Assembly: GCA_029865945.1 (NCBI GenBank)
Contig: JARXAH010000044.1
Span: 1-50,424, forward strand
DNA length: 50,424 nt
Direction: 5' to 3'
Source: Bacteriovoracaceae bacterium
Lineage (GTDB): Bacteria; Bdellovibrionota; Bacteriovoracia; Bacteriovoracales; Bacteriovoracaceae
Position numbers and translations under genes: made by a program. How positions within the stretch are numbered: the stretch's first letter is position 1; the number at the start of each line of letters is the position of its first letter. The notes under the pieces were generated by a model. The model made no database searches, was not told where the DNA came from, and saw nothing but the letters and a program-made list of their open reading frames with translations. Positions 15,274 through 18,177 of the stretch are shown here, in pieces.

Positions 15274-15561
15274 TTATTCTGGATCAGTGAAATTTTTACT
15301 TAGAGATTCATCGCAGGGCGTCCATAAAACAGCAACCCCTTTAATGAGATCAGATTCTTGGATTTCCTGAGCGTGGGAAAATAGTTCTTGATATTTTTGG
15401 TGTTCATCATGAATTTTTTGGAAATAAAGAGACGGAAGAAAGGATTTTTGGCAGTGAGGACAGCGCTCCAACTCCACTTCTGTTTCATGGCATTTACCAC
15501 AACGATGGCATAGCCTGATTAACTTATTTTTTCCTGATTGGAGATTTGATATTTTCGTCAT
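15274..15561 (-). CDS. Small zinc-ribbon protein, 95 aa
   Basis: Two CxxC pairs (C18-HR-C21 and C34-PH-C37 in LCHRCGKCHET and RCPHCQKS) form a four-Cys zinc ribbon, with a further Cys at 24. The remainder is a hydrophilic helix (QKIHDEHQKYQELFSHAQEI) and a short tail with one more Cys. No catalytic domain. Such small ribbons usually bind nucleic acid or protein. The RBS is weak (AGGTGAG about 12 nt from the ATG). It borders the large inverted-repeat block to its left side in transcription. Confidence 0.7.
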   Translation of the reverse strand: MTKISNLQSGKNKLIRLCHRCGKCHETEVELERCPHCQKSFLPSLYFQKIHDEHQKYQELFSHAQEIQESDLIKGVAVLWTPCDESLSKNFTDPE

Positions 15562-15634
15562 AGTCTAGTAACTCACCTATGGTTCCTATCGGTAGGGAAA
15601 AATTTTCCTTTAATGGTAACTATACTCATTGGAA

Positions 15635-15752
15635 TTTGGTTTTCAGGGTAGTGGATGAGGTTCCAAACCAAAGGTTTGGAAGGCGTATGGATATACGTCG
15701 ACGACGGAAATGATCCAACGATTTGGATCATTTGCGCACCCTGAAAACCAAA
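15635..15752. repeat. Cruciform element: closing stem enclosing three hairpins
   Basis: A perfect 15-bp inverted repeat (15635-15649 and 15738-15752, TTTGGTTTTCAGGGT and its complement) closes a 118-nt block. Inside are three hairpins: 15661-15681 (perfect 9-bp stem, 3-nt loop), 15684-15697 (5-bp stem, 4-nt loop, followed by the palindrome CGTCGACG), and 15708-15733 (perfect 11-bp stem, 4-nt loop). There is no ORF in it. It could fold as a four-way junction in RNA or single-stranded DNA, and may be a non-coding RNA, a non-autonomous mobile element or a protein-binding site. Confidence 0.75.
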
Positions 15753-15764
15753 GTGCGATGGGTA

Positions 15765-15882
15765 TACCTTAGGTCCCTCGTAAATTTCGACACTCTACGA
15801 TCTCCTTGACCTGCGGCTTGCTTTGATCCAGCCTCGGACCGTCAATCTAGTCGTATCGAAATTTCCAGAGGGCCTTAAGGTA
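15765..15882. repeat. Long imperfect hairpin element, second 118-nt inverted block
   Basis: The arms 15765-15790 and 15856-15882 are an imperfect inverted repeat with about 22 of 27 positions matching. Nested inside are the pairs TACGA/TCGTA (15796-15800, 15851-15855), TTGAC/GTCAA (15806-15810, 15841-15845) and GGCT/AGCC (15815-15818, 15830-15833). It lies 12 nt after the first cruciform and has the same span. A 7-bp inverted repeat GTAACTA/TAGTTAC (15616-15622, 15881-15887) encloses both. Confidence 0.6.
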
Positions 15883-15931
15883 GTTACAATTCTTTTTAAG
15901 TCGTTACCTTTTAAACCCGAGAGAAAAACTC

Positions 15932-17152
15932 ATGAATTCATCATTATTAAATTTTGAGAACAAAGATCTCTCCCTTCTTCCCTCTGTATCATTGGCCCGT
16001 GATCTACAATCAAAACTGGGAGAAGGTCATCAATGGATTTTTCATGATGCCCTAAGTGAGGGCCCAAAAAACTACAAAGGCCCATCCCTTTTAAAATTTA
16101 AAAATAAATCGATTGCGGTGGGTGCCTATGATTCTTCTAGTGAGTTGCGCTATCGATTCTTGTCATGGCTTCCGATGGAGGGCGATGAATTTTTGAAACG
16201 ATGGAAACTTGCCATCAAGAGGAGACACCGATATTTAGATAAAAATGAGCGATTAAAAACAAATTCCTTTCGCCTTATTTTTGGTGAGGGCGATGATTTT
16301 CCAGGAATCGTCATTGATATTTTTGCCAATATTGCTGTCATTCAGTTGGATCGCCCGTGGCTTAAAAAAATTTGGAATTTAGAGGCCTGGATCAAACTCA
16401 TTCGAGAAGATTTGCCATTTATCGAGGGGATTTTATTAAAATCTAAAACTTCGGCCAAAGAAAATGAGGGAGAGGAGAGTGAAGTTCTTTTTGGGGACGT
16501 GCCCGAAATCATAGAATTTAAAGAAAATCAAATGATCTTTAAAACAAAAATAAGAGAGGCGGCCAAAACGGGATTTTTTCTAGATCAAAGAGATAATAGG
16601 TTGCTCATCGAAAAATTTACCAGTGGGTGCCGTGTCATTAATTTTTTTTCCTACACCGGGGGCTTTTCTGTTTTTGCTGCGAGGGGAGGAGCGAGTGAAG
16701 TGATCAGTGTGGATATTGCTAAGGCAGCGATTGATAATTGCGAAGAGCATTTTGTATTAAATAAATTAAACACGAAACGAACTCATATTTGCAATGATGC
16801 TTTTGAATATTTAGAGTTGATGAAAAAGAAAAAAGAAAAATTTGACTTAGTCATCATTGATCCTCCGAGCTTTGCTCCCAATGCCAAAGCTAAAGAAAAT
16901 GCCATGAAGGCGTATGAAAAATGTTTTGCGATGGGTGCAGAATTAGTTTCAAAAAATGGTTTATTGGCGTTTAGCTCATGTTCAGGACATGTTTCATTGG
17001 AAGATTTTGGGCATGTGATTAATGCAAGCGTTTCAAAAGCGAAGCGCCGCGCAAAAATTATCGCGTGGGGGCATCAGCCTTCTGATCATCCTTATCCGCT
17101 GGCGATGAAGGAACTTCATTATCTTAAGTTTTGTTTGTTGGAGTTGGGATGA
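15932..17152 (+). CDS. RlmI-type class I SAM-dependent rRNA methyltransferase
   Basis: 406 aa, close to E. coli RlmI (396). The N-terminal 85 residues follow the PUA-plus-EEHEE layout of the family. The SAM site is FFSYTGGFSVFAARGGASEV, with the acidic loop ISVDIAK, then motif IV LVIIDPPSFAPN. The Cys in SSCSGHVS corresponds to the catalytic cysteine region of m5C enzymes. The linking sequence GFFLDQRDNR is diagnostic of this family. RlmI makes m5C in 23S rRNA; the exact nucleotide here is inferred from the family and could differ. Transcribed alone, with the inverted-repeat block upstream. Confidence 0.9.
   Translation: MNSSLLNFENKDLSLLPSVSLARDLQSKLGEGHQWIFHDALSEGPKNYKGPSLLKFKNKSIAVGAYDSSSELRYRFLSWLPMEGDEFLKRWKLAIKRRHRYLDKNERLKTNSFRLIFGEGDDFPGIVIDIFANIAVIQLDRPWLKKIWNLEAWIKLIREDLPFIEGILLKSKTSAKENEGEESEVLFGDVPEIIEFKENQMIFKTKIREAAKTGFFLDQRDNRLLIEKFTSGCRVINFFSYTGGFSVFAARGGASEVISVDIAKAAIDNCEEHFVLNKLNTKRTHICNDAFEYLELMKKKKEKFDLVIIDPPSFAPNAKAKENAMKAYEKCFAMGAELVSKNGLLAFSSCSGHVSLEDFGHVINASVSKAKRRAKIIAWGHQPSDHPYPLAMKELHYLKFCLLELG

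Positions 17153-17388: not shown

Positions 17389-18177
<789 letters not shown>

Follow-up and report, generated by a model that had tools for sequence, protein, structure and literature searches.

Two hairpin-rich miniature transposable elements, one very probably nested in the other, in a Bacteriovoracaceae genome

What kind of sequence folds this strongly in a place where no gene accounts for it? The question is raised by a 370-bp gap in the window (here, the whole stretch of DNA that was analysed, 50,424 nucleotides long), which separates two divergent genes starting at 15561 on the minus strand and at 15932 on the plus strand; its neighbours are a 95-aa protein without a Pfam hit and a downstream methyltransferase (Methyltrans_SAM). 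A sequence-only reading had pointed out two palindromic blocks in this gap, described them as tandem, and suggested an undescribed non-coding RNA, a non-autonomous mobile element folded like a recombination site, or a REP/BIME-like cluster. The excess of pairing is real on both strands, with a z of about -8.6: the region 15600–15900 folds at -118.8 kcal/mol on the plus strand, as compared with -75 ± 5.1 for shuffled sequences (z -8.57), and at -108.9 against -69.8 ± 4.6 on the minus strand (z -8.58), and none of 100 shuffles was as stable as the real sequence. The gap is also gene-free, in that no ORF of at least 80 aa overlaps the structured region. The first block does have its perfect 15-bp closing stem, the second is indeed a long imperfect hairpin (15767–15887), and a 7-bp repeat, GTAACTA/TAGTTAC, encloses both (15616–15622 / 15881–15887). 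Among the three inner hairpins of the first block, those of 9 and 11 bp stand as described, while the middle one has 7 bp and not the 5 bp first given.

The answer starts from where else the blocks occur. The assembly analysed comprises 3.08 Mb in 103 contigs and is 96% complete. When it was searched with the 281-nt region spanning both blocks, the matches fell into two disjoint sets of copies, those of the first block alone and those of the second block alone, and the flanks of the extracted copies were unrelated outside each block. Target-site duplications were found for both, TA for the first (element A) and 8 bp for the second (element B). The suggestion of a non-autonomous mobile element therefore holds for each block, both being dispersed, multi-copy repeats with such duplications, and the genome-wide count rules out a single-copy curiosity. 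The junction in the window reads GTAAC-TA-[A]-TA-CCTTAGG, while uninterrupted copies of B read GTAACTACCTAGG across the site of the A insertion, and nearly all other complete B copies have the left end GTAACTACC or one close to it (for example GTAAATGCC, GTAACAACC or ATAACGACC). From GTAACTA[142 nt]TACC in the window as against GTAACTACC elsewhere, it follows that A inserted in the left end of B and duplicated the TA, which accounts for the apparent tandem arrangement as well as for the enclosing repeat. The blocks are not tandem: they are unrelated in sequence, the first sits inside the left end of the second, and the 7-bp repeat is B's own terminal pairing, interrupted by A. We are thus confident that the window holds an IS66-type MITE into which an IS630-type MITE has inserted. 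The features of the locus, as we read them, are the following.

15608–15615, no strand: left flanking 8 bp of B, probably its decayed target duplication (CTTTAATG); a weak match, with 5 of 8 positions shared with the right-hand copy
15616–15622, no strand: left terminal fragment of B, GTAACTA, separated from the rest of B by A
15621–15622, no strand: TA target-site duplication of A, left, from the comparison of the junction with uninterrupted B
15623–15764, plus strand: element A, 142-nt IS630-type MITE of the full-length subtype with three inner hairpins, from its copies and TIR match
15635–15752, plus strand: closing stem of A, 15 bp (15635–15649 / 15738–15752), enclosing the hairpins
15661–15681, plus strand: hairpin H1 of A, 9 bp, missing as a unit in the 129- and 106-nt subtypes
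15682–15699, plus strand: hairpin H2 of A, 7 bp, from folding
15705–15736, plus strand: hairpin H3 of A, 11 bp plus 2, missing as a unit in the 122- and 106-nt subtypes
15765–15766, no strand: TA target-site duplication of A, right, from the same comparison
15767–15907, minus strand: remainder of B, IS66-type MITE with a multi-arm interior, from its copies; right end GTTAC decayed, where intact relatives end GTAGGTAGATAC with an 8-bp target-site duplication
15799–15849, minus strand: conserved core arm of B, CCGAG-stem-loop-stem-CGCAGG with a GA/GCA internal loop, slightly decayed (models R1 and R2)
15908–15915, no strand: right flanking 8 bp of B, probably its decayed target duplication (CTTTTAAA); weak

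A DNA search of the nearest genomes for orthologous intergenic sites met other genera and no empty site, and the best homologues of the downstream methyltransferase, at about 45–50% identity, are too distant for the intergenic region to be read from them. The closest relatives of this methyltransferase suggest that the genome probably belongs to a Bacteriovoracaceae-like member of the Bdellovibrionota. Elsewhere in the window, at 17395–17441, there is an error-free (TTTC) tract of 11.8 units where the ORF at 17389 starts, in its signal-peptide region FFLSFFLSFFLS; this tetranucleotide tract within a coding sequence is a candidate phase-variable switch.

Element A is present in at least 18 full or near-full copies, plus further solo ends. 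None carries a transposase gene, and with the flanking TAs counted they measure 106–157 nt: 146–157 nt for the full subtype, about 129–132 nt without H1, 121–124 nt without H3, and 106 nt without both, so that the hairpins come and go as whole units. The TIR of A is TATACCCATCGCACTTTGGTTTTCA, and its terminal repeat TATACYCATYGSAMTTTGGTTTTCA bounds, with few changes and on both sides, MITEs of two further genera (G022 and G093) whose interiors are unlike that of A. In one related genome (G126), the IS630 end TATACCCAACGCACTTGAGTTTTCA, which matches that of A, lies 25 nt past the transposase ORF (NF033545); transposase homologues in G043, G044 and G094 have related ends 25–36 nt past the ORF, the left end of the IS630 of G047 is related as well, and ends related to those of A are present in loci L204–L227. 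A TIR shared with the IS630 elements of relatives, taken together with the TA duplication, identifies A as an IS630-type MITE. In the 96%-complete assembly itself there is no IS630 transposase of the A type, only one DDE_3 gene, with the TIR TATAGATCGTAACGAAAATAATTTCAG. This lowers, and does not exclude, the chance of a resident enzyme; MITEs outlive their partner transposases, and a partner in the same genome is not strictly defining. The sole IS630 of the genome (L150:1365-2483, contig C103) is intact with 30-nt TIRs, and a copy of A begins 30 bp past its right end. We rejected this IS630 as the transposase of A, since despite such proximity its own 30-nt TIR differs.

Element B occupies up to 37 places in the genome, although some pairs of places at contig ends could be the two parts of a single copy. 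When intact, B is 146–216 nt long, begins with GTAACTACC and ends with GTAGGTAGATAC. Of 14 intact copies, 10 are flanked by an exact 8-bp direct duplication and none by an exact 9-bp one, and the flanks agree at a mean of 7.07 of 8 positions, as compared with 3.57 when partners are shuffled. The genome has two IS66 transposases, on contigs C76 and C9. The C76 element (transposase NF033517, 280 bits) ends in GTATCTACCTACGTCCC on both sides, with the 14 terminal nucleotides identical to B's right end and closely similar to its left (GTAACTACCTAGGTCCC), and has no recognisable target duplication of its own; the C9 element has the ends GTAACTACCCA and the target duplication AAAAAAAG. Members of the IS66 family make 8-bp direct repeats and have terminal repeats starting with GTAAGCG (PMC11946415, PMC3281130). 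B shares the 8-bp direct duplications with this family, and the ends GTAAC/GTATC with the resident single-ORF IS66 elements; it differs in having no gene and in starting with GTAACTACC / GTATCTACC instead of GTAAGCG, and the resident IS66 elements start likewise. The 8-bp duplications and the ends in common with resident IS66 make B an IS66-type MITE. The copy in the window is an old one, as its right end (15907) and its duplication are decayed. In the literature searched, no description turned up of a MITE that derives from IS66 and has a structured interior.

The near-identity of B copies often breaks the assembly of this genome. Copies lie at, or within a few bases of, the ends of contigs C4, C7, C8, C27, C33, C39, C41, C44 and C47–C50, and C52, C53, C68, C73, C89 and C99 also end at or near one. 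The copies of A and B that were examined are intergenic, save for a few that overlap ORFs which are open-ended or loosely called. They have no orientation bias relative to the neighbouring genes, and outward promoters or terminators are no more frequent in the elements than expected by chance. Any RNA effect of these intergenic copies without a preferred orientation would thus be local and not operon-specific.

Two other explanations of palindromic, intergenic elements have to be weighed at this point. A REP/BIME cluster mobilised by a RAYT tyrosine transposase would share both of these properties, and the genome does have one Y1/RAYT-like gene; the elements, however, are 106–216 nt long with IS630- and IS66-type ends, rather than 20–40 bp units tagged with GTAG, no repeat of the A or B kind lies beside that gene, and target duplications of fixed, IS-specific lengths contradict the idea, which we regard as very improbable. 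We also considered membership of the REP/BIME class by its usual definition, that is, 20–40 bp palindromes tagged GTAG or CGTC with a RAYT gene flanked by them, and rejected it, as size, ends and target-site duplications all differ. The RAYT-like gene (L161:737-1366, minus strand, contig C15) scores 74 bits with NF047646 against an NCBIfam cut-off of 80, and has only AT-rich inverted repeats alongside. The second explanation, a site for recombination of single strands, for instance an integron attC or some other four-way junction, could draw on the imperfect hairpin of about 120 nt with its unpaired bases, but the copies sit on different contigs between random flanks and 8-bp direct duplications, and by inspection their ends are without the R boxes RYYYAAC/GTTRRRY. 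Nothing in the dispersed copies supports folding of the recombination-site kind, and we give this explanation next to no credence.

Having settled on two MITEs, we come to what their folds are for. The conservation of pairing is most striking in B: on the minus strand, 97% of the 50 pairs are kept across 17 distinct copies, and 12 pairs have changes on both sides, a result that none of 500 shuffles equalled and that a slide of the alignment by a single column destroys. Of the types of variant pair on this strand, 14 are G-U and none is A-C, while the unpaired columns, with few changes, have no such mutational bias. A G-T in one strand of a DNA cruciform corresponds to an A-C in the opposite strand. 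The excess of G-U without A-C hence suggests that the B fold is constrained on one strand, probably and most simply as RNA. In A the pairing is less well kept, and the tendency is weaker than in B, with G-U over A-C at 15 to 5 on the plus strand. One could argue instead that the pairing of B is a DNA-level by-product of transposition, made of terminal repeats and cruciform-prone palindromes with no RNA role, since the terminal repeats of any MITE pair and folding is strong on both strands. This is rather improbable in our judgement: the inner arms, far from the ends, covary too, a double-stranded cruciform would not favour G-U over A-C at 14 to 0 on one strand, and the changes in unpaired columns, few as they are, point to no mutational bias that could have produced it.

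The part of B that reaches furthest is its core arm. A covariance model of this arm (R1), built from 10 sequences, the window copy among them, finds the window core at E 5.2e-10, as one of its training sequences, and has matches in 10 of the family's 125 genomes. The elements concerned differ widely in their ends (TATACTGATGC..GCATCAGTATA, TACCAAGCC.., GGGGCCGTTG.., GTAACTGCTC.. and others); among the matches is a homologue of B with compensated stems in G085. A broader model (R2) was made from 25 sequences, with 7 of its 11 pairs changed on both sides and none of 500 shuffles as good. It matches 71 of 368 genomes of the phylum, in 43 of 181 genera, counting single weak distant matches unchecked; the window core scores 43 bits (E 1.5e-11), a fit rather than an independent detection, as it too is a training sequence. 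The pairing noticed in the window is thus conserved in relatives. No family in Rfam 15 corresponds to it, as covariance-model searches gave tRNA alone, both for the window at gathering scores and, at E ≤ 1, for 20 loci with A, B, core-bearing and related elements.

In B the core arm is flanked by optional arms, and GATCCAACGATTTGGATC is common to the H3 hairpin of A and an extra arm of long B copies. Other arms recur as well: optional hairpin arms that have AACGATTT as their loop, as well as the arm GACTGTGC..GCACAGTC, are present in several element families with different ends (loci L123 on contig C42, L166, L283, L286 and L290), as if MITEs had exchanged hairpin arms.

With a core of such distribution, it may be asked whether B as a whole, or only its core, represents a true family of non-coding RNA genes, in which RNA function came first and the transposon ends and mobility are secondary. 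In favour of this, the core arm occurs with compensatory changes in at least 14 families of the phylum, the same core lies inside different outer frames, G-U is favoured over A-C, and folding favours the core strand in 37 of 38 and in 15 of 19 elements, which are not independent of each other. Against this, copy number and presence differ greatly between genomes, 297 of the 368 being without a match, and several distant members fold equally well, or better, on the opposite strand. We consider the gene-family reading unlikely, if worth keeping in mind. The earlier suggestion of an undescribed non-coding RNA accordingly survives in part: the gene is not borne out, whereas a structured RNA within a MITE is plausible from the covariation of the core, the single-strand constraint and the lack of an Rfam match.

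A different setting of the core was met in another family of the phylum, in G170 and G208 (loci L327–L342). Here the copies are 85–90% identical to each other in the core and 31–48% identical in the 10 outermost bp at either side, and yet in every copy these two outer stretches pair with one another at 7–10 of 10 positions, as compared with a null of 3.8. The core therefore lies within a stem that differs at every locus. Some of these stems are terminator-like, with adjoining runs of A or T, and others are not. The pattern suggests that the core enters palindromes already present, at their axis, or else that its insertion creates the inverted flanks. There are parallels in the literature: YPAL of Yersinia, a 168-bp hairpin element, inserts at or beside dyad symmetry with duplications of 3–26 bp (PMC2229807), and the palindromic REP sequences are hot spots for insertion sequences (PMC1525189). 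The G170 and G208 elements resemble YPAL in their apparent insertion at dyad symmetry, and resemble insertions into REP in apparently having palindromes as targets, except that each palindrome is a different one.

As a tentative, possible reading, then, the interior of B would belong to a phylum-wide class of small folded elements in which a core arm (CCGAG-stem-CGCAGG with tandem purine loops) under single-strand, probably RNA, selection sits inside different transposon frames (IS66-type, IS630-type and others) and, in certain families, at the centre of palindromes that differ from locus to locus. If this is true, the core would be a mobile structured unit that invades hairpins and thereby rides unrelated transposons.

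Element A has close counterparts among described elements. The Correia elements, or NEMIS, of Neisseria are about 100–155 bp long, with a 24-bp TIR, TA at the ends and a target duplication; their length classes differ by an internal segment, and their strongly folded transcript is a proposed RNase III substrate (PMC2229807). A resembles them in size, in its TIR with TA, and in having a target duplication, length classes and a strong fold; it differs in the sequence of the TIR and in subtypes that vary by whole hairpin arms. RUP of Streptococcus pneumoniae is an intergenic IS630-type MITE at TA, presumed to be mobilised in trans by IS630-Spn1 and often found inside other mobile elements (PMC2229807). 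The likeness extends to A being IS630-type, intergenic, targeted to TA and inside another mobile element, B; the assembly, however, holds no matching IS630, and A has a multi-arm interior.

Starting from the dispersal, ends, target duplications, nesting and conserved pairing established above for A and B, the history of the locus is very probably as follows. B entered a gap of some 70 bp between divergent genes, and A later inserted into the TA of B's left terminal repeat. Having no protein genes, both were presumably moved in trans by full-length insertion sequences recognising their ends: for B the resident IS66 of C76 or a close relative, for A an IS630 transposase of the type present in related genomes. 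The core of B, in the minus-strand sense, would act as folded RNA, most likely by making read-through transcripts fold into something stable and open to processing, as has been suggested for NEMIS; such a structure might allow B to be tolerated in short intergenic gaps.

It is worth pointing out that nested MITEs are of an ordinary, known kind. What is new here is the modular make-up of the interiors, together with a conserved, apparently single-strand-constrained core common to unrelated transposon frames. Two unrelated transposon types have interiors of interchangeable hairpin arms, and one of these interiors holds a folded core that is conserved across the phylum and has no described RNA family. 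If the core turns out to be a functional RNA or a hairpin-seeking unit, it would offer a testable case of bacterial structured RNAs and transposons being built from one another.
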